DNA from: Deltaproteobacteria bacterium
Lineage (GTDB): Bacteria; Myxococcota; Myxococcia; Myxococcales; SZAS-1
DNA: 40,454 nt
NCBI GenBank assembly: GCA_018266075.1
Contig: JAFEBB010000066.1
Location: forward strand, 1 to 40,454
Direction: 5' to 3'
In this document: positions 63 through 11,015 of the stretch, in pieces
How positions within the stretch are numbered: the stretch's first letter is position 1
How the letters are laid out: every line of letters begins with the position of its first letter
Program-made: the position numbers and the translations under genes
Notes under the pieces: generated by a model
Database searches by the model: none
Told to the model about the DNA's origin: nothing
Seen by the model: only the letters and a program-made list of their open reading frames with translations

Positions 63-419
63 CTAGTCGCCGGTGTAGATGCAGCCCGACGTGCAGGTCT
101 CCTTGACGATGACCTTGCACAGGCTGGGCAGCGACGGCCGCAGCCGAGTCCAGATCCACTTGGCGAGAAGCTCGGACGTCGGATTCGAGAGCCCGTCGAT
201 CTCGTTCAGGTAGTTGTGATCGAGCTGCGCGTGCAGGGGCGCGAACGCCGTGCGCAGGTCGTGGAAATCGCAGATCCAGCCCGTGTCCTTGGCGGGCTCG
301 CCGCGCACGTGGATCTCCACGCGGTACGAGTGCCCATGCAGCCGGCGGCACTTGTGGCCCTCGGGCGTGTGCGGCAGGAGATGCGCCGCCTCGAAGCTGA
401 ACTCCTTGTAGATGTCCAT
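63..419 (-). CDS. queD: 6-carboxy-5,6,7,8-tetrahydropterin synthase (QueD)
   Basis: This 118-residue protein of the PTPS/QueD family is predicted to convert 7,8-dihydroneopterin triphosphate to 6-carboxytetrahydropterin, the second step towards preQ0 and queuosine in the cytoplasm. Three zinc-binding histidines are visible: His13 in FEAAHLLP, and His28 and His30 in LHGHSYR. The catalytic Cys24 lies in CRRLHGH, Asp67-His68 in LDHNY, and a substrate-binding Glu107 in VKETC. The length is normal for bacterial QueD. The ATG start is followed directly by the conserved MDIYKEFSFEAAH opening, so the start is firm. queE lies 13 bp upstream on the same strand, which implies co-transcription. queC and queF are not in the window. 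Confidence 0.96.
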   Translation of the reverse strand: MDIYKEFSFEAAHLLPHTPEGHKCRRLHGHSYRVEIHVRGEPAKDTGWICDFHDLRTAFAPLHAQLDHNYLNEIDGLSNPTSELLAKWIWTRLRPSLPSLCKVIVKETCTSGCIYTGD

Positions 420-432
420 CGCGCGTGACGTC

Positions 433-1065
433 CTATCGGATCCCCAGCAGCTTGTGCGTCTGAAGTGACAGCCGCCAGCGCGGGTGCGCCAGACAATAAG
501 CGACGGCCGCGGCGGTGTTCGCCTCGCGCGCGGGGCCGTCCATGGGCTGCAGGAAGAAGCTCTTGAAGGGCAGGGCCTCGAAGCGCTCGGGCTCGGCGCC
601 CGGCTGCGGGAAGACCAGCTTGAGCTCGTCGCCTTGCTGCAGCACGAGCTCCGCGCCGGCCTTGGGCGAGACGCAGACCCAGTCGAGCCCCTGGGGCGCG
701 GGCCGCGTTCCGTTGGTCTCCACCGCCACCTCGAAGCCGCGCGCGTGCAGCGCGTCCACCAGCGGCGCGTCGAGCTGCAGGAGCGGCTCGCCGCCCGTGC
801 AGATGACGAGCTTGCGCTCGGTCGGGCCGTTCCACGCCGACGCGACGGCCTCCGCGAGCTCCTCGGCGCGGGCGAAGGAACCGCCGCCCGTACCGTTGGT
901 GCCCACGAAGTCGGTGTCGCAGAAGCGGCAGATGGCCCGGTCGCGGTCGCGCTCGTGGCCGCTCCACAGGTTGCAGCGCGAGAAGCGGCAGAACACGGCC
1001 GGACGCCCGGTGTTCGCGCCCTCGCCTTGCAGCGAGTAGAAGATCTCCTTCACGTCGTAGGCCAT
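433..1065 (-). CDS. queE: 7-carboxy-7-deazaguanine synthase (QueE), radical SAM enzyme
   Basis: This 210-residue radical SAM enzyme uses the queD product to make 7-carboxy-7-deazaguanine. The N-terminal motif EIFYSLQGEGANTGRPA is characteristic of QueE. The [4Fe-4S] cysteines are Cys31, Cys46 and Cys49, spaced CX14CX2C. This is the expanded spacing known for a subgroup of QueE proteins (for example Burkholderia multivorans), not the canonical CX3CX2C. The SAM-binding glycine motif CTGGEPLLQ follows at about residues 89-97. The ATG at 1065 precedes MAYDVKEIF. queE is the upstream gene of a two-gene unit with queD. It diverges from the lipoprotein gene across about 106 bp in which no clear promoter or preQ1 riboswitch was recognised. 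Confidence 0.95.
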   Translation of the reverse strand: MAYDVKEIFYSLQGEGANTGRPAVFCRFSRCNLWSGHERDRDRAICRFCDTDFVGTNGTGGGSFARAEELAEAVASAWNGPTERKLVICTGGEPLLQLDAPLVDALHARGFEVAVETNGTRPAPQGLDWVCVSPKAGAELVLQQGDELKLVFPQPGAEPERFEALPFKSFFLQPMDGPAREANTAAAVAYCLAHPRWRLSLQTHKLLGIR

Positions 1066-2866: not shown

Positions 2867-4045
2867 TCAGCTCGCCAGCACCGGCAGCTTCACGTCCACG
2901 CTCTGCGCCGCGTGCGCGCGCACCCGCGGACAGCCTGGATCCGGCTGCCACCAATCGCCCCGCGCCTTGGCCACCACGCGGCAGCCGCCCTTGCAGAGCG
3001 AGAGGTACTCGCAGCTCCGGCACGGCTCGGGCGCGCGGTCCACGTAGCCGCGGAAGGCCTCGAAGCCGCGGTCGAAGGCGCGCGCCGTGGCCTCGGCGTC
3101 GAAGATGGAGCCTTCGTTCGGGCCGCCGAAGCTGCAGCCGGTGACGCTGCCGTCGGGCATCACGCTCGCGAGCAGGTTTCCGCCCTCGCAGCCCACCACG
3201 CCGAAGAACTTCGCGACCGTCGGGCTGGGCTTGTGCCAGAACACCATCGGCGCGAACGAGCAGTCGAGCTTGATGCGCATGCGGTGGCGGAACATCAGCT
3301 TCTTGGCGAGCGGGAAGATGCCCTCGGCCTGCTCGGGCGTGAGGTCCTCGTCCGCGAAGGTGCCCAGGCCGCGGCCCGCGGGCTTGAAGCGCAAGAGCTC
3401 CACTTCGTTCAGCCGCAGCTCGCGCGCGAGCGCCACCACCTCGCCCAGGTGCGGATAGCTCGAGCGCGACACCACGCAGTTGATGCCCACCTCGCGCTTC
3501 ACCTCGCGCAGGAGGCGCAGGGCGCGCTCTGCGTGGCGGAAGCCGTCGAAGCCGCGCGCTGCCTCATAGCGCTTGCCCACGCCGTCGATGGAGACGTTGA
3601 TCTGCCCGAAGATCTGGCAGCGCTCGGCGAGCTCGGGCGTCATGTTCAGCCCGGCCGTGGTGAGGTTCGGGAGGATGCCCACCTTGCGCGCGTGCGCCGC
3701 CACCGCGAACAGGTAGTCGAGGTCCATGGCCTCGCCGCCGCCGAGCGCCACGTGGAAGACGCCGTGCGCCGCGAGTCGATCCAGCGCCTCGCGCGCCTGG
3801 TCGAGCGTCATCGCCGGGCCCTGGGGCGTCGCGTCGACGTAGCAGCTGGTGCAGCCCGCGCTGCAGCGCTTGCTGATGACGAGGTGCACTTCGGTGGGCG
3901 CGCTGAGCCGCTTGGGATCCGCGCCTTGCCAGTGCTGCGACTGGGGAAGCCCGAGCAGTCGCATCATGTTGCGGTTCACGGAGATGACCGCGCGCGGCTT
4001 CTCCAGCGAGACCAGGCCGCCAAACCACTCGGCGCGCAGCTTCAC
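2867..4045 (-). CDS. Radical SAM/SPASM-domain enzyme
   Basis: This is a radical SAM enzyme of 392 residues from the GTG at 4045. The [4Fe-4S]-SAM cysteines are Cys61, Cys65 and Cys68 (CSAGCTSC, canonical CX3CX2C), and the glycine motif LGGGEAM lies at 101-107. The C-terminus carries a SPASM-type auxiliary-cluster region with Cys286, Cys304, Cys342, Cys345, Cys351, Cys355 and Cys372. Enzymes with this layout usually modify peptides or proteins (PqqE, anaerobic sulfatase maturases, RiPP maturases) or cofactors (NirJ-like); the substrate here is unknown. A longer reading from 4108 exists, but the GTG at 4045 overlaps the stop of the upstream small gene as GTGA and is preferred. It is the last gene of a six-gene minus-strand operon. 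The neighbouring 70-residue protein is one candidate substrate, which is inference only. Confidence 0.92.
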   Translation of the reverse strand: MKLRAEWFGGLVSLEKPRAVISVNRNMMRLLGLPQSQHWQGADPKRLSAPTEVHLVISKRCSAGCTSCYVDATPQGPAMTLDQAREALDRLAAHGVFHVALGGGEAMDLDYLFAVAAHARKVGILPNLTTAGLNMTPELAERCQIFGQINVSIDGVGKRYEAARGFDGFRHAERALRLLREVKREVGINCVVSRSSYPHLGEVVALARELRLNEVELLRFKPAGRGLGTFADEDLTPEQAEGIFPLAKKLMFRHRMRIKLDCSFAPMVFWHKPSPTVAKFFGVVGCEGGNLLASVMPDGSVTGCSFGGPNEGSIFDAEATARAFDRGFEAFRGYVDRAPEPCRSCEYLSLCKGGCRVVAKARGDWWQPDPGCPRVRAHAAQSVDVKLPVLAS

Positions 4046-4254
4046 GGCGCGTCCTTCGCGGGCTCTTGTCCGACGACCTGAGCGGGCTTCTTGCGCGCGC
4101 GCAGCCACGCGGAGAGGAAGAGCGACGCGCCGAGCGCCGCCGCGCCGCCGAACAGCAAGAAGGTCACATCGACGCCGAGCGAGCTGGAGTTGGGGTTGGC
4201 GCCGAAGCGCACCCCGAGGATCCGCGGGCGGTCGTCGAGCTCGCGCTCGTCCAT
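4042..4254 (-). CDS. Small single-span membrane protein
   Basis: This 70-residue protein starts at ATG 4254 (MDERELDDRPRILG). It has an acidic N-terminus, a short polar stretch (FGANPNSSSLGVDV, residues 17-30), one hydrophobic span at about 28-50 and a basic RARKK flank at 52-56, so the C-terminal tail is expected in the cytoplasm. An in-frame start at 4284 would add ten mostly basic residues and is less likely. Its stop codon overlaps the GTG start of the radical SAM gene by 4 bp, indicating translational coupling. No known family was recognised. It could be an assembly partner or a substrate of the radical SAM enzyme; the sequence does not decide between these. Confidence 0.72.
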   Translation of the reverse strand: MDERELDDRPRILGVRFGANPNSSSLGVDVTFLLFGGAAALGASLFLSAWLRARKKPAQVVGQEPAKDAP

Positions 4255-4297
4255 GGCCAAGGTTCTACGGCGATGACGCAGCAAACGGAAGGGTTGC

Positions 4298-5098
4298 TCA
4301 GCGCTCGGCGCCGTTGGTGAGCGTCTCTGAAAACTTCATCCACAAGTCGTTCGCGACCACGGCGCAGTAGAGCAGGGCGGCCGCCTCGGCGAGCCCCAGC
4401 ACGCCTTCCAGGATCCGCACCCGCTTCGACGGCGTCCGCGCGCGCAGGTGCACGCCGTGCGCGTAGAGCAGCACCAGCGCGCCCAGGGCCACGGTCGCCA
4501 CCGCCTTGGCCTCCGAGGCCGGCTGGGCAAACGCGGCGGCGAGCATCACGCCCGCCACGGGCAGCGCGTAGGTCGCTTCCTCGGGCAGCGGCCAGAGCGC
4601 GCCGCGCGAGCGATAGAGCCGCAGCCCCACTCCCGCGATCAGGCCGATGCACAGCGCGACGAAGACGTACCACCGCCGCTGCTCCTCGCGCGCGGCCACC
4701 GCGGCCATGCGGCCCACGTACTGCCAGTACGGCGAGTCGAGCTTGGAGAGCCTCTCGAAGGTGGTGATGGCCGGCGTGTAGTGGTGCGTCGCGACATTCA
4801 AGTCGGCCACACCCTTCTCGCCCTGCCAGCCCCACTCGGTGCCCGCGTAGTCGGCGGCGGCGCGCGCGAAGAGCGGCTGGGCGAGATCGATCCGGTGGTC
4901 GGCCAGCCGGAGCTCCGCCATCCACACCAGGCCGCGACCTGCGTTGGGGTCGTCGTGGTGCGCGTCGACCCAGGCCTGCATCTGCGCACACGACGCGTCG
5001 TGGCTCTGCTGGCCCACGCGCGAGACGATGGCGTCGAAGCCCGGGTCGGGCGTCGCCAGCGCCAGCGCGAGGGGCAGGAGCGCAGAGAGCGTCGTCAT
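4298..5098 (-). CDS. TPR-like protein with C-terminal membrane domain
   Basis: This 266-residue protein has an N-terminal hydrophobic signal (MTTLSALLPLALALA). A helical tetratricopeptide-like segment follows at about residues 20-125, with alternating small and aromatic residues such as LVWMAELRLADHRIDLAQPLFARAAADYAG. Four hydrophobic spans follow at about 143-160, 178-192, 200-217 and 232-250. The likely topology is a periplasmic TPR region anchored in the inner membrane. ATG 5098 overlaps the stop of the upstream gene by 4 bp (ATGA). No enzymatic motif was seen. The operon context suggests a structural or scaffold role beside the small membrane proteins and the phosphoesterase. Confidence 0.82.
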   Translation of the reverse strand: MTTLSALLPLALALATPDPGFDAIVSRVGQQSHDASCAQMQAWVDAHHDDPNAGRGLVWMAELRLADHRIDLAQPLFARAAADYAGTEWGWQGEKGVADLNVATHHYTPAITTFERLSKLDSPYWQYVGRMAAVAAREEQRRWYVFVALCIGLIAGVGLRLYRSRGALWPLPEEATYALPVAGVMLAAAFAQPASEAKAVATVALGALVLLYAHGVHLRARTPSKRVRILEGVLGLAEAAALLYCAVVANDLWMKFSETLTNGAER

Positions 5099-5502
5099 CG
5101 CGGGGTGTAGCCCTCGGGCAGGGCGAGCGGGAAGGGCGTGCGGCCCATGAGCAAGAACACGTAGAGCGCGGCGGTGAAGATGAGCAGGCCCGCGGCCCAG
5201 GCGGCGAACATGCGCAGCGTCGGGGCCTGGCGCTCGCTGGGCAGGCGGGTGGCGATGGCGCGGCCCACCAGCGCCGCGACGCCACCTGCCACCAGCGAGA
5301 GCAGGATCCGGCCCATAAAGTCCATGGCCAGAACGTTCGGATGCACCTCGAACGTGAACCGCCGCTCCAGCGGGCGATACCAGAGCAGCGGCGTGGGAAT
5401 CGCCGTGCTCACGAAGTACGTGACCAGGTAGCCCGCGGCGAAGGCGGTCCAGGTGATCGCCTGGCGCACGCGCGCGGCGGTGTCGGTCGCGGGGGCGCTC
5501 AT
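5095..5502 (-). CDS. Small three-span membrane protein of unknown function
   Basis: This protein has 135 residues from ATG 5502 (MSAPATDTAARVRQAITW). Hydrophobic spans lie at about residues 17-36, 62-84 and 98-120. A conserved-looking polar loop (LWYRPLERRFTFEVHPN) sits between the first two spans. Both ends overlap neighbours by 4 bp (ATGA at 5499-5502 and at 5095-5098), strong evidence for a translationally coupled operon. A much longer open frame runs through this region from 6894, but its upstream part is an out-of-frame shadow of the phosphoesterase and membrane genes. No family was recognised. Confidence 0.82.
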   Translation of the reverse strand: MSAPATDTAARVRQAITWTAFAAGYLVTYFVSTAIPTPLLWYRPLERRFTFEVHPNVLAMDFMGRILLSLVAGGVAALVGRAIATRLPSERQAPTLRMFAAWAAGLLIFTAALYVFLLMGRTPFPLALPEGYTPR

Positions 5503-5972
5503 ACGCCCCTCACGTCGGTGACCACCAGGCCCATCACCGCGCTGGCGACGATGAGCGTCCAGATGGCGATCGACAAGAACGCCAGCCACCCGAGCAGCGG
5601 CTGATCGCGGCTCGGGTCGAGCTTGCGGCCCACGCTGAAGAGCCCGACCGCGAGCGGCAATCCGAGCGCGGCGAGGTTCTCCTTGATGTCGAAGAGGTTC
5701 GAGGCCCAGGGCTCGTAGCGATCGAGGTACAGCCCGCGCACGGCGTAGCGGTAGTGCGGGTACATGAGCAGCCCGAACAGGAACGCGGCCGCGAAGCACC
5801 CGCCGATGACCTGCGCATAGACGCGCGCCAGCCGTCCGAGGTGGTGCGCGCCCCGCCACAGCCGCCAGGACACGATGGCCAGGTGCGTGCTCGCGCCCGC
5901 GAGGGCCAAAGCCGCGACGGCGTGGAGCACGAGCAGCGGCCGCGCCCAGGACTCGAGGAAGGTGTGCGCCAC
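5499..5972 (-). CDS. Four-span membrane protein of unknown function
   Basis: This 157-residue protein starts at a GTG (5972) directly abutting the TGA of the metallophosphoesterase. Four hydrophobic segments lie at about residues 12-36, 53-70, 98-115 and 125-150. Histidines fall inside or at the ends of the first two spans (His17 in LLVLHAV, His30 in ASTHLAI, His73 in MYPHYRY). This could suit heme b or metal ligation, but that is only inference and no heme-binding family is recognised. A polar loop YLDRYEPWASNLFDIKENLA separates spans 2 and 3. The stop overlaps the next gene by 4 bp. Confidence 0.8.
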   Translation of the reverse strand: MAHTFLESWARPLLVLHAVAALALAGASTHLAIVSWRLWRGAHHLGRLARVYAQVIGGCFAAAFLFGLLMYPHYRYAVRGLYLDRYEPWASNLFDIKENLAALGLPLAVGLFSVGRKLDPSRDQPLLGWLAFLSIAIWTLIVASAVMGLVVTDVRGV

Positions 5973-6815
5973 TCAGTGCCCCGCGTCGGCCGCCGGTGAG
6001 GTGGCGGAGGTGAGGGTGATCTTCGAGCGGTCGAGCAAGGTGCCCGAGGCGTCGAAGGCCTGGACATCGAGCGCGTCGGCGGTCACGTCCACCAGCACGT
6101 AGCCGAAGCCGTCGAAGCGGAACGCGCTCCACGGCGGCGCGGGGTCCACCATCGGCCTCAGCTTCGCGCCGCCGCCGCCCTCGACGAAGTACGTCACCCC
6201 GTTGATGGGCTTGCTGCGCTCGTAGTCGTGGTCGTGGCTCTGGAAGACGGCGAGCACGTGGCTCTTCTCGAAGAGCGGCTGGAGCAGCGCGCGCAGGGCT
6301 GCGTCGCCGCCGTGGCTGCCCGAGCTGTAGATGGCCTTGTGCAAGAAGACGACGGTGGGCTTGTTCGCGTGCGCGGCCAGGTCCTGCGCGATCCACTCGA
6401 GCTGCGCCGAGCCTGCGGCGAGCGGCTCCTCGGTGTCGAGCCCCAGGAAGTGCAGCCCCAGCGCGTCGAACGCGTAGGCCTCGCTGGCGCCCGCGCCCTT
6501 GGTGCCCTCGGGCGGGAGCTTGAAGTGCGCGGCGAACTCCTTGCCCACGTCGTGGTTGCCGCGCACCGGGTAGAGCTTGAGCGCGTCGCGGAGCGGCTTC
6601 TCCAGCGCCTCCCAGTGCGCCCACTCGTCCTTGGAGGTGCCGTCCTTCACCGCGTCGCCGGTGAAGAGGGCGAGGTCCGGCTTGGCGGCGACCACCGCGG
6701 CCACGATGCGCGCGTGCTCCGCGTCGTTGTCGCGGGTGTCGCCGTAGACGGCGAACCGCGGACCGCGCGCGGGCGCAGCGGCGAGGAGCGAGCAGGCGAG
6801 CACGAGGAGGCGCAT
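5973..6815 (-). CDS. Secreted calcineurin-like metallophosphoesterase
   Basis: This 280-residue protein from ATG 6815 has a Sec-type signal peptide (MRLLVLACSLLAAAPARG). A start at 6857 would add 14 residues before the signal and is disfavoured. Calcineurin-type motifs appear in order: VYGDTRDND (Asp26), LFTGDAVKDG (Asp54), YPVRGNHDV (Asn87-His88-Asp89), FLHKAIYSSG and FQSHDHDYERS with the final metal-binding histidines. The first motif is GDT instead of Asp-X-His, resembling the purple-acid-phosphatase branch (GDxG/T). The enzyme should act outside the cytoplasm on a phosphomono- or diester; the substrate is unknown. It is the first gene of the six-gene operon. Confidence 0.92.
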   Translation of the reverse strand: MRLLVLACSLLAAAPARGPRFAVYGDTRDNDAEHARIVAAVVAAKPDLALFTGDAVKDGTSKDEWAHWEALEKPLRDALKLYPVRGNHDVGKEFAAHFKLPPEGTKGAGASEAYAFDALGLHFLGLDTEEPLAAGSAQLEWIAQDLAAHANKPTVVFLHKAIYSSGSHGGDAALRALLQPLFEKSHVLAVFQSHDHDYERSKPINGVTYFVEGGGGAKLRPMVDPAPPWSAFRFDGFGYVLVDVTADALDVQAFDASGTLLDRSKITLTSATSPAADAGH

Positions 6816-6999: not shown

Positions 7000-7037
7000 G
7001 CCGACATAGCTCAGCTGGCAGAGCAACGGTTTCGTAA
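7000..7037 (+). tRNA. 5' half of tRNA-Thr(CGT), truncated after the anticodon loop
   Basis: Positions 7000-7037 match the 5' half of a bacterial tRNA-Thr: acceptor strand GCCGACA, TA, D-arm GCTC-loop-GAGC, anticodon stem strand ACGGT and loop TTCGTAA with anticodon CGT. The expected partner strand ACCGT does not follow (CGCGC instead), and no T-arm or acceptor 3' strand is seen downstream. The break falls exactly where the 3' anticodon stem strand should begin. It is therefore a fragment and not a functional tRNA. Anticodon loops are frequent crossover points for tyrosine integrases, and an excisionase-like gene lies about 240 bp downstream. That supports an old or current integration junction, although the integrase itself is not in the window. 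Confidence 0.85.
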
Positions 7038-7278
7038 CGCGCGGCCGGCCCCAAACAATCCGAGCAGCTCGCCAAGCGCCCGAGAGCACGAGTGCAGGTG
7101 TCTGCACTCGCGTCCAGTGGTCGCGTTGTCACTACGTCCCAATTACGTCCCAGCGGGTCGCCGATTCCGGCCTGCGGGTCGCGCACGTGGCGCTTCAGTC
7201 GCTCTAAGGAGACTCCCCGGCCGCCTTGAGTCGGGGAGACGGCTGACCAGAGGCGCACGAGCAACGCGCTTGCCTCGG
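7038..7278. other. Non-coding stretch beside the broken tRNA
   Basis: No convincing gene was found here. The stretch holds one clear inverted repeat, CTCCCCG at 7213-7219 and CGGGGAG at 7232-7238, with a 12-nt loop. It lies downstream of the minus-strand helix-turn-helix gene, but no T-run follows on either strand, so a terminator role is unproven. Confidence 0.5.
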
Positions 7279-7629
7279 CTAGTTTCCGGTGCGCTCAGCC
7301 TGCGACTTCTTCGCGAGTGCGCGGAATCTCGTTCCGCGGTTGGGCGCCACTTTTAGAGCCGCCGGCGGCGGTGCACCGTCAGCGTCGAGGTCCTGGTAGG
7401 CACGAAGGGAAGCAGTGGTGACCCTTGTGTGCCGGCCAGCCTTCTTCGCACGAACGAGCTTCCCCTTCTTGATGAGCTCGTAGACCCGGCTAACGCTGCA
7501 ACCGAGTTCCTCGGCTGCTTCCTCGATCGAGAGCGTGCCGGCGGGCGCAAGCGCTCGCCGCAGCGCGCGTAGTTCGCGCGTCTGCTCCTGGAGCGCGGCC
7601 AGCAGCTGGCGCCCGAGTTCCTCGGTCAC
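7279..7629 (-). CDS. Helix-turn-helix protein, excisionase/MerR-like (HTH_17 type)
   Basis: This is a 116-residue protein from the GTG at 7629. It is preceded by a good ribosome binding site (GGAGAGGAG about 9 nt upstream), which decides the start against the longer reading from 7911. Residues 5-28 form a predicted amphipathic helix (LGRQLLAALQEQTRELRALRR). Residues about 32-78 (LSIEEAAEELGCSVSRVYE, then LIKKGKLVRAKKAGRHTRV) match the winged HTH of excisionase-family DNA-binding proteins. The C-terminal tail is basic. Such proteins act as Xis-like recombination directionality factors or as small regulators in integrative elements. Its closeness to a tRNA half fits an integrated element; alternatively it is a stand-alone regulator. 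Confidence 0.82.
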   Translation of the reverse strand: MTEELGRQLLAALQEQTRELRALRRALAPAGTLSIEEAAEELGCSVSRVYELIKKGKLVRAKKAGRHTRVTTASLRAYQDLDADGAPPPAALKVAPNRGTRFRALAKKSQAERTGN

Positions 7630-8073
7630 GCGACCAGCTCCTCTCCATCGAGGCGCCGCAGAGGTTGTAGGACGCGCTGGACGCCCGCGAGCTCGGCTCT
7701 TGAGGAGCACCGGCTGGTGCGGCGTGAGCGCGGGCGAGCTGCGTACATGGGCCGAGCTTGCCGAACGCAGCTTGAAGGGGCCCGCTGGTACATTTCTCCC
7801 CGAAGGGGCGTTCGACGCCACCGCCGTCCTGCGGGTGGGTATTGCGATTCGTGGCGTTGACGCGCAATTCGAGCCGGACCCGCTACACCTGCACCCCAAG
7901 AGGGCAGTCACGCCTTGTCGTGCAACGTGACTCGGGGCGCAGAGGGTGTGGCGAATTGATCCGTCGCGGTGACGAGAATCGACAGAGGCGTCACTGACGG
8001 CAGCAGCGTGGACGTAGGGACAGCTCGCGGGGAACGACCAAGCTCCTCTCGATGCGATCCTCAGCGCCGATGC
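7630..8073. other. Gene-poor stretch
   Basis: No supported gene. A minus-strand frame runs from 7911 into the HTH gene, but it lacks family-like sequence and the HTH gene has its own ribosome binding site. No RNA gene, terminator or promoter could be identified with confidence. It may hold the control region of the HTH gene. Confidence 0.4.
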
Positions 8074-10112: not shown

Positions 10113-11015
10113 GTGAAGTGCTGGGTGAGGGTGGTCGCGGTCTCGGTGGTCGTGGTCGGCTCGGCTTCGTGCCGCGGCCGAGAGTCTGCTCAATCGCCCG
10201 AGAAGGTAGTGGCTGCACCCTCGGATCCGGTCGTCGGTCGCTTCAGCGGCGGTGTGGTCACGCAATCGGAGGTCGTCGAAGAGGTCCGGCAGATGCCGCC
10301 GGCCCTGCGCAAGGAGTTCTCCTCGGCAGCCGGCGAGCGCGAGCTCGTGAGCAGCATGGTCGACAAGCGCCTCCTCTTCGAGGAGGCCCAACGCCGCGGG
10401 CTCCAGAAGGATCCTGACATCGAGCGCGAGGTCCAGGAGCTCCAGGAGCGCTTGATGATTCGAGCCCTCCTCGCGCAGGAGGAGAAGCGCGCGGGACCGA
10501 TCTCCGAGCAGGAGCTCCGCCAGTACTTCCAGGCCAACCCGAAGGAGTTCATTACACCCGAGAAGGTGCAGATCGAGCGGCTCCTGATCGCGGTTCCCGC
10601 CACTGCTTCGAAGTCTGACCGCGCCAAGGCACGCGAGAAGACGGAGCGCCTACTGGCCCAGGCGAAGCGTGGGGTCGCGCTTGCGAAGTTGGCGGCGAGC
10701 GTCGAGGGGGGCGCTGCCAAAACCGAGGTGATGGAGCCGTTCGCGAAGACGGATTCGCACGATCCGAAGCTCGTCGAGGCGGCTTTCGCCCTGAAAGACG
10801 CAGGCGCCCTCTCCAGTGTGCTCGAGCTCAACGGCGGTTTCGCCGTGCTCCGGCTCGTGGCGCGTCAGCCCGAGTCACCTCTGCCCTTCGAAGCCGTGCG
10901 CTCCAAGATCGAGACCAAGCTCGATCCCGCGCACCGCAGGCACGTATTCAACGAGTTGCTGGAGAAGTTGCGGAAGCCGGCCGAGGTCCATGTGGACCTC
11001 GCCACGCGGAAGTAG
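10113..11015 (+). CDS. Lipoprotein peptidyl-prolyl isomerase, parvulin/SurA-like
   Basis: This is a 300-residue protein from the GTG at 10113, preceded by GAGAGG with 6-nt spacing. A GTG at 10083 would add ten residues before the signal and is less likely. The signal VKCWVRVVAVSVVVVGSASC ends in a lipobox with Cys20 as the lipidation site. Residues about 35-135 form a SurA_N/trigger-factor-like helical region (VTQSEVVEEVRQMPPALRKE, VSSMVDKRLLFEEAQRRG). Residues about 150-255 resemble a parvulin rotamase domain (EKVQIERLLIAVP through LELNGGFAVLRLVARQPESP). It should be tethered to a membrane facing the periplasm and assist proline isomerisation or folding. The giant gene starts 15 bp downstream, so that product is its likely client. 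Confidence 0.9.
   Translation: MKCWVRVVAVSVVVVGSASCRGRESAQSPEKVVAAPSDPVVGRFSGGVVTQSEVVEEVRQMPPALRKEFSSAAGERELVSSMVDKRLLFEEAQRRGLQKDPDIEREVQELQERLMIRALLAQEEKRAGPISEQELRQYFQANPKEFITPEKVQIERLLIAVPATASKSDRAKAREKTERLLAQAKRGVALAKLAASVEGGAAKTEVMEPFAKTDSHDPKLVEAAFALKDAGALSSVLELNGGFAVLRLVARQPESPLPFEAVRSKIETKLDPAHRRHVFNELLEKLRKPAEVHVDLATRK

Follow-up and report, generated by a model that had tools for sequence, protein, structure and literature searches.

A radical SAM/SPASM enzyme co-inherited with a membrane micropeptide suggests a peptide-modifying system not described before, shared by at least four phyla

A radical SAM/SPASM enzyme (P0001) and the single-span micropeptide encoded beside it (P0002) form a pair whose conservation extends over Myxococcota and no fewer than three further phyla. 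The two are best explained as an enzyme and its substrate, a reading of the whole to which we give a probability of roughly 0.7. Such a pair suggests a peptide-modifying system that has not been described before and that acts at the cell membrane; there is no biochemical evidence of modification. P0002 and P0001 are the core of the system, and P0003 is nearly always found in the same genome.

The pair closes a run of six minus-strand genes (6815 to 2867) in the window, the whole 40,454-nucleotide stretch of DNA that was analyzed (Table 1). The translations reproduce exactly the layout of the preliminary description, with three neighboring gene pairs overlapping by 4 bp, one pair abutting directly, and one pair separated by 43 bp. 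Among the six proteins, only P0001 and P0006 reached Pfam or NCBIfam cut-offs. No Rfam RNA or tRNA was found in the window, and a PHROGs search returned generic matches only. The six-gene order is identical in locus L031, and in genome G155 two contig ends, encoding phosphoesterase-P5-P4-TPR and TPR-peptide-SPASM, together apparently give the same order. The shorter orders P0002-P0001 or P0003-P0002-P0001 were observed repeatedly across phyla. Because of these recurrences, the arrangement is more than chance.

Table 1. Operon genes and the motif-coding segment, in positions of the window
Feature	Positions	Strand	Details
P0006, phosphoesterase	6815-5973	minus	280 aa
P0005	5972-5499	minus	157 aa; GTG start; abuts P0006 directly
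P0004	5502-5095	minus	135 aa; 4-bp overlap with P0005
P0003	5098-4298	minus	266 aa; 4-bp overlap with P0004; 43-bp gap before P0002
P0002, micropeptide	4254-4042	minus	70 aa; single span
P0001, radical SAM/SPASM	4045-2867	minus	392 aa; GTG start; 4-bp overlap with P0002
DNA for the GxNPNSSSLG motif	4175-4203	minus	P0002 residues 18-27

The co-occurrence of enzyme and peptide is close to complete. Across 195 Myxococcota genomes, the SPASM family (membership at >300 bits) is present in 20, and the peptide was identified in 19 of those same 20. The SPASM gene of the lone exception (G047) is cut at the contig start, and another genome (G029) encodes two SPASM enzymes and two peptides. The two genes adjoin, often with a 4-bp overlap, and pairwise identity among the paired enzymes is only 35 to 81%. 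The preliminary description had suggested that the set could be a modification or maturation system associated with the membrane and not described before. This one-to-one co-occurrence, together with the failure of known equivalog families to reach their cut-offs (see below), supports that proposal, while the modification itself is not demonstrated.

P0002 has an N-terminal GANPNSSSLG segment followed by a membrane span, and across the family the motif G-x-N-P-N-S-S-S-[LI]-G sits immediately before the span. The residues G, N, P, N, S, S, and S are identical in all 28 relatives, which come from at least four phyla, and the second position is occupied by Y, C, S, V, A, F, or I. All codons of the seven invariant residues vary, with switches between TCN and AGY at all three Ser positions. 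The family has no invariant Cys and no conserved aromatic residue, and its C-termini are variable, charged tails that lack a terminal Val-Tyr. An N-out topology is inferred from the K/R count (3.9 in the C-tail versus 2.4 on the N-side), which is a weak bias. A DNA pattern for the motif gave 12 matches in 13 genomes, all at P0002-type peptides, against 0 for the reversed control pattern, and the single copy in the genome of the window lies at P0002. One further peptide-profile match (genome G523; E 1.5e-4) was rejected, as it lies within a pilT-like gene on the antisense strand and no SPASM gene adjoins it. No mention of NPNSSS or NPNSSSLG was found in the open literature searched.

A precursor-type gene strictly linked to a modifying enzyme meets a criterion for RiPPs, and RiPP clusters are usually laid out with a small gene immediately upstream of the SPASM maturase (PMC9062424). 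P0002 could then be a conventional precursor whose modified and cleaved product is exported to act as a signal or bacteriocin. This is very unlikely, given that the conserved segment is N-terminal to the membrane span and not a C-terminal core, and that this core does not diversify, in contrast to most secreted peptides. Its occurrence in several phyla alongside a TPR membrane protein is more suggestive of a housekeeping function. In addition, no RiPP recognition element (RRE) was detected, and no peptidase or exporter was conspicuous in the neighborhoods, which were read by eye.

The position of the motif directly before the membrane span, with no sign of P0002 processing, would also suit a role for P0002 as an adaptor in the membrane or as a small subunit, anchoring P0001 or presenting another protein to it. 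The motif would then be a binding surface, and the true substrate would be some other protein or a small molecule. Strict pairing is equally expected of an obligate subunit, and polar Asn, Ser, and Pro residues could form a binding loop. We nevertheless hold this to be unlikely, because most of the enzyme is less conserved over four phyla than these seven invariant residues. Moreover, genome G388 carries a second peptide copy without an adjoining SPASM gene that still has the motif, in its own TPR-peptide-thioredoxin-phosphoesterase operon, and this better fits a shared functional product.

P0001 belongs to the radical SAM/SPASM superfamily, with matches over cut-off to Radical_SAM (Pfam PF04055; 4e-13) and to the SPASM domain (NCBIfam TIGR04085; 38.2 bits, cut-off 27). 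The CX3CX2C motif lies at residues 61 to 68 and the seven-Cys SPASM motif at residues 286 to 372. Both CX3CX2C and the SPASM cysteine set (C-X9-15-G-X4-C ... CX2CX5CX3C ... C) are kept in 27/27 homologs. The solved structures nearest P0001 are PqqE, SkfB, anSME, and SuiB, all of which act on peptides or proteins, and the top Foldseek match of the P0001 model is anSME (4k37; E 1e-13). No PqqD-like RRE was detected in the N-terminus by hhalign against a PqqD alignment (P-value 0.2, equal to unrelated controls), and the AF2 model of this region contains only three strands and a helix. A plasmid search for relatives retrieved generic SPASM genes that were at best only 24 to 29% identical.

In the library, the window copy scores best against NirJ, MftC, NirJ1, and GeoRSP, as would be seen if P0001 acted in a heme or cofactor pathway (of the NirJ/AhbC/AhbD, GeoRSP, or mycofactocin type) beside incidental neighbors. 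However, all scores are far under the cut-offs, so that the window copy meets no NCBIfam equivalog cut-off: NirJ, 85.3 bits (cut-off 515); MftC (TIGR03962), 83.7 (265); GeoRSP_rSAM (TIGR04303), 82.4 (400); AhbD, 67.7 (500); and AhbC, 67.4 (650). Each of the 27 family members matches many SPASM families, and no tetrapyrrole genes were recognized adjoining P0001 in the loci read. The neighbors are not incidental, because the small protein is matched one to one with the SPASM family across genomes, and little credence remains for such a pathway. The preliminary description would have been refuted by a SPASM enzyme that clustered with a known function and had homologs lacking these neighbors; neither was observed, since the equivalogs stay under cut-off and the peptide co-occurs.

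P0003 is the third recurrent partner, with a signal-like N-terminus, a TPR-type region, about four spans, and a conserved C-terminal tail; its topology is our own reading by the positive-inside rule. TPR repeats were identified in 11 of 14 homologs, and the window copy is below threshold. The partner is unlinked to the pair in several genomes and was not found in two genomes that carry the system (G003 and G044). Three membrane-span proteins of the operon had been described as belonging to no known family. This does not hold for P0003, in view of the TPR repeats of its homologs.

P0004 is a membrane protein of about three spans with a YxPxxR...M-x-[FY]-x-G loop, and it occurs paired with P0005. 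The latter is a four-helix membrane protein in which H17, H30, YPxYR, and FDxKE are invariant in the aligned set, and its AF2 model is a confident four-helix bundle (pLDDT 88). P0005 was assigned to no known family and had no Foldseek match at E<0.001 (best, cytochrome bd at 0.055). A role as a known heme protein or transporter was rejected, with only weak Cyt_bd_oxida_II matches in 3 of 11 members. P0005-P0004 were also rejected as obligate partners of the SPASM enzyme, since the pair is present without it in five genomes; the two are a separable pair. P0006 is a secreted calcineurin-like or purple-acid-phosphatase-like metallophosphoesterase (Metallophos PF00149, 50.9 bits, 3e-13; Metallophos_C PF14008, 30.1 bits, 8e-7; both over cut-off). 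Phosphoesterases of this type were found only in the closest loci and one distant locus. Phosphoesterase-domain proteins head the operons in loci L031 and L154, and in another phylum a P0006 homolog adjoins a second copy of the peptide gene, making P0006 a recurrent accessory. The earlier suggestion that all six linked genes serve one pathway needs correction insofar as it treats them as equals: P0002/P0001 is the core, P0003 a recurrent partner, P0005-P0004 a separable pair, and P0006 an accessory.

Under the enzyme-substrate reading, P0001 would act in the cytoplasm, where a radical generated from S-adenosylmethionine would bring about an oxidative change of at least one residue in the N-P-N-S-S-S segment of P0002. 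Catalysis, product, and modified residue are all inferred. The most plausible chemistry would be Ser oxidation or a cross-link among Asn, Ser, or Leu side chains; the P0002 family conserves neither a Cys nor an aromatic residue, which makes thioether (sulfur-to-carbon) and aromatic cyclophane formation unlikely. The micropeptide may remain a resident inner-membrane protein, showing its modified N-terminal segment at the periplasmic face and working there with P0003 in a complex whose physical existence is likewise an inference. P0005-P0004 and secreted P0006 might be lineage-dependent accessories, also on the periplasmic side. Several points count against the enzyme-substrate reading: the lack of biochemical evidence, the undetected RRE, the absence of a noticed protease or exporter among neighbors that were read by eye and not all scanned, the weak topology bias, and the TPR partner that is unlinked or missing in some genomes.

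The substrates of known SPASM maturases are mainly natural-product peptides that are secreted, cofactor precursors (PQQ and mycofactocin), and a few proteins (such as sulfatases and QhpC). In the present system, the strictly co-inherited partner of the SPASM enzyme is a tiny membrane protein. Its motif contains neither Cys nor an aromatic residue and is therefore incompatible with the thioether and cyclophane chemistries known so far. A new class of modification by radical SAM enzymes, directed at aliphatic Asn, Pro, and Ser residues of a resident inner-membrane micropeptide, is a tentative proposal that we hold at less than even confidence. The modified residues could supply a peptide-derived functional group, such as a formylglycine-like aldehyde or a side-chain macrocycle, for a periplasm-facing TPR membrane complex kept in deeply separated bacterial phyla. 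Since substrate, motif, and enzyme are short and defined, modification is directly testable by co-expression and mass spectrometry. Through this system, membrane-protein families that lack database annotation become accessible to functional study, as does a trait common to Myxococcota and at least three other phyla.

Comparison with known systems reveals partial resemblances. MftC is the full-length family that matches best across all members (27/27; best E 9.9e-45), and both enzymes have a SPASM domain; its substrate MftA is modified at a terminal Val-Tyr, which P0002 lacks, and no MftB/PqqD-like chaperone was detected. GeoRSP (TIGR04303) likewise shows full-length similarity in 27/27 members (best 3e-43), but no adjoining SPASM-only or PqqD-family companion was identified at the P0001 locus; a literature search on GeoRSP returned nothing on topic. 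Maturases of the SuiB, SkfB, and XyeB type (for Lys-Trp, sactipeptide, and cyclophane products) share the SPASM fold and a small gene alongside, but they need a Trp, Tyr, Phe, or Cys in the substrate, and the invariant P0002 motif has none. Most SPASM RiPP clusters have an adjoining protease or exporter, whereas none was noticed next to P0001, with neighbors judged by eye and not all scanned for families. No literature match was found for a small membrane protein together with a SPASM enzyme. anSME oxidizes a Ser or Cys in a conserved protein motif and acts on sulfatases that carry the sequence C/S-x-P-S/A-R; no operon protein matches a sulfatase model in Pfam or NCBIfam. In the QhpC/QhpD system, a small subunit gene lies beside its dedicated radical SAM enzyme, and modification takes place in the cytoplasm before the periplasmic complex is formed (PMC7876137). 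P0002/P0001 is alike in that a small protein is encoded beside its own radical SAM enzyme. QhpC differs in its Cys-to-Asp/Glu thioethers, leader, protease (QhpE), and exporter (QhpF), whereas P0002 has a membrane span, no conserved Cys, and no protease or exporter gene seen adjoining. By analogy, P0001 most likely works in the manner of QhpD on QhpC or of anSME, while being a member of neither family.

Six minus-strand genes (6815-2867) form a compact operon whose junctions, read 5' to 3', are an abutment, two 4-bp overlaps, a 43-bp gap, and a final 4-bp overlap, in exact agreement with the coordinates of the preliminary description. Among the six proteins, only the radical SAM/SPASM enzyme (P0001) and the secreted phosphoesterase (P0006) pass a Pfam or NCBIfam cut-off. 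When 60 related genomes were searched at the protein level, P0001 relatives at 60 to 78% identity turned up in 11 other genomes, the next best reaching about 35% or less. Scanning 84,980 species genomes for patterns derived from the single protein P0001 added named Myxococcota and 'Deltaproteobacteria' MAG loci (L031-L041). All 27 aligned members (pairwise identity, 35 to 81%; median, 45%) retain CX3CX2C and the full seven-cysteine SPASM motif. Clustering of the enzyme with a known function, which would have undermined the earlier proposal of an undescribed membrane-associated modification or maturation system, was not found: the nearest NCBIfam equivalogs (NirJ, MftC, and GeoRSP) all lie far under their cut-offs. 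Membership in MftC, GeoRSP, or NirJ was tested, and the family criteria were not met. By sequence, the best-matching proteins of known structure are PqqE, SkfB, anSME, and SuiB; the predicted fold (model pLDDT, 74) comes nearest to anSME, SuiB, a sactisynthase, SkfB, and PqqE. The substrates of these enzymes are peptides or proteins in every case.

A protein of the P0002 type, a single-span micropeptide, adjoins the P0001 homologue in every locus whose contig extends far enough. Its gene usually lies directly upstream of the SPASM gene, overlapping it, and is divergent on the opposite strand at the G343 and G389 loci. Profile searches of 195 Myxococcota genomes found the peptide in 19 and the SPASM family (>300 bits) in 20. 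The two sets are identical except for G047, which has no detected peptide and whose SPASM gene is cut at the contig start; homologues of the enzyme that lack their neighbors, the other condition that would have refuted the proposal, were thus not found as regards the peptide in 19 of 20 genomes. One genome (G029) carries two copies of each. The hypergeometric probability of so close a match is about 2e-25 by a simple count that ignores shared descent. Three further phyla also encode the peptide (4/7, 2/2, and 2/6 genomes searched), and in every neighborhood fetched there (G390 left out) a SPASM homologue adjoins it or, for the second copy of G388, lies about 3 kb off. A weak peptide-profile match in G523 was attributed to chance.

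In the P0002 family (about 50 to 85 residues), an N-terminus that is short and basic is followed by the motif G-x-N-P-N-S-S-S-[LI]-[GS], a single membrane span, and a basic tail of variable sequence. Over 28 copies, the motif residues G, N, P, N, S, S, and S are invariant while codons vary at all of them, both TCN and AGY being used at each of the three serines; this sequence pattern indicates purifying selection on the protein rather than recent common descent. When 13 genomes were searched with a degenerate DNA pattern for the motif, it matched 12 times, always at P0002-type genes, and the reversed control pattern matched nowhere.

The remaining partners are less tightly bound to this core. 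Homologues of P0003 (a TPR region, about four spans, and a conserved C-terminus) adjoin the peptide in genome families f1, f3, f9, f11, and f18 and in most loci from other phyla, and are present, mostly unlinked, in f7. With the membrane half as query, 9 of the 11 SPASM-positive genomes yielded a homologue and three SPASM-negative controls yielded nothing convincing (best E, 0.009). Two families have, in place of the TPR gene upstream of the peptide, one that encodes a secreted protein with Trp/Tyr-rich repeats (SPYGxWxxV...WGW motifs; read without a family scan). In three f11 genomes (L066, L067, and L070), one gene of unassigned family separates the cluster from five complex I membrane subunit-like genes (nuoJ-K-L-M-N, by eye).

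P0005 and P0004 are adjacent wherever both are found. In f1, f4, f7, and one other phylum they flank the core; in f9 they are located elsewhere. They occur without the SPASM system in five genomes and are therefore a separable module; there they form a two-gene membrane module with conserved His and charged residues and unknown function. P0005 is modeled as a confident four-helix bundle without significant structural matches, and His17, His30, YPxYR, and FDxKE are invariant in the aligned set. The first gene of the operon encodes a protein with a phosphoesterase domain in the window, L031, and L154 (G155 contig end). In G388, from another phylum, a P0006 homologue (31% over 219 aa) and a thioredoxin-like protein adjoin the second TPR-peptide copy; this peptide lacks its own SPASM, and its operon also encodes a phosphatase-N-domain-like/TPR fusion.

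Around the operon, the tRNA-like stretch (5' half only; ARAGORN calls no tRNA) and the adjoining excisionase-like ORF could mark an integrated-element junction at the promoter end. Two genes resembling QueD and QueE (queuosine precursor synthesis; by eye only) lie downstream. The long open frame (about 9,800 codons, continuing past the window end) combines an LVIVD repeat with numerous bacterial Ig-like domains (Big_7/Big_2) and is predicted to encode a giant adhesin-like or surface protein; the PPIC-type isomerase (Rotamase_2, 2e-16) directly 5' of it is possibly its folding helper.

Coordinates of the operon genes and associated features
Feature	Source	Coordinates	Strand
P0006 phosphoesterase	window	6815-5973	minus
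P0005	window	5972-5499	minus
P0004	window	5502-5095	minus
P0003	window	5098-4298	minus
P0002	window	4254-4042	minus
P0001 SPASM enzyme	window	4045-2867	minus
QueD/QueE-like genes	window	63-1065	minus
tRNA-like stretch	window	~7003-7040	plus
HTH_17 excisionase-like ORF	window	7279-7911	minus
PPIC-type isomerase	window	10131-11015	plus
Long open frame	window	11073-40454	plus
Second peptide copy (NPNSSSIG)	L110	8434-8616	plus
Trp/Tyr-rich repeat protein	L032	284-1519	
Trp/Tyr-rich repeat protein	L035	8694-9809	
Trp/Tyr-rich repeat protein	L037	8760-9824	
Trp/Tyr-rich repeat protein	L039	1118-2284	
Trp/Tyr-rich repeat protein	L042	9611-10621	
Trp/Tyr-rich repeat protein	L043	6773-8017	
P0005-P0004 pair, SPASM-lacking	L153	5657-7584	
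P0005-P0004 pair, SPASM-lacking	L155	5783-6603	
P0005-P0004 pair, SPASM-lacking	L156	6142-6911	
P0005-P0004 pair, SPASM-lacking	L157	6426-7219	

The strict pairing, a short segment that stays invariant while the rest of the protein varies, and the peptide-type SPASM fold are, on comparative evidence alone, best explained if P0001 modifies the NPNSSS segment of P0002. This supports and sharpens the modification or maturation reading, the modification itself being inferred. A thioether or aromatic cyclophane product is unlikely because the motif has no invariant Cys or aromatic residue. Ser oxidation, an Asn/Ser/Leu side-chain cross-link, or epimerization is possible, and we lean toward an oxidative change because none of the 27 members has lost any of the SPASM cysteines. 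No RiPP recognition element (RRE) was detected in P0001, a protease or exporter is apparently absent from the SPASM-peptide loci, and a span follows the motif, which suggests that the modified product would remain in the membrane. K/R counts (3.9 on the C-side versus 2.4 on the N-side of the span) weakly favor the inference of a periplasm-facing motif. The same side may hold the TPR region of P0003, the loops conserved in P0005 and P0004, and the secreted phosphoesterase, as inferred from a positive-inside reading of P0003, P0005, and P0004; a physical complex of P0002 with its operon partners is likewise an inference.

Passages of a SPASM gene-neighborhood survey (PMC9062424) hold no description of this system, nor did full-text search of open-access literature return one of the motif; prior description elsewhere is not excluded. 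Closest in working is QhpC/QhpD, a small protein and the radical SAM enzyme of its own operon: QhpC is modified in the cytoplasm by QhpD and then serves a periplasmic complex (PMC7876137). P0001 and P0002 miss the defining features of that system, namely, the Cys/Asp thioethers and, judging by neighbors largely read by eye, the leader protease and exporter. A SPASM enzyme acting with a ribosomal substrate is a kind of system already known, and in this one the chemistry or the role stands a real chance of being new.
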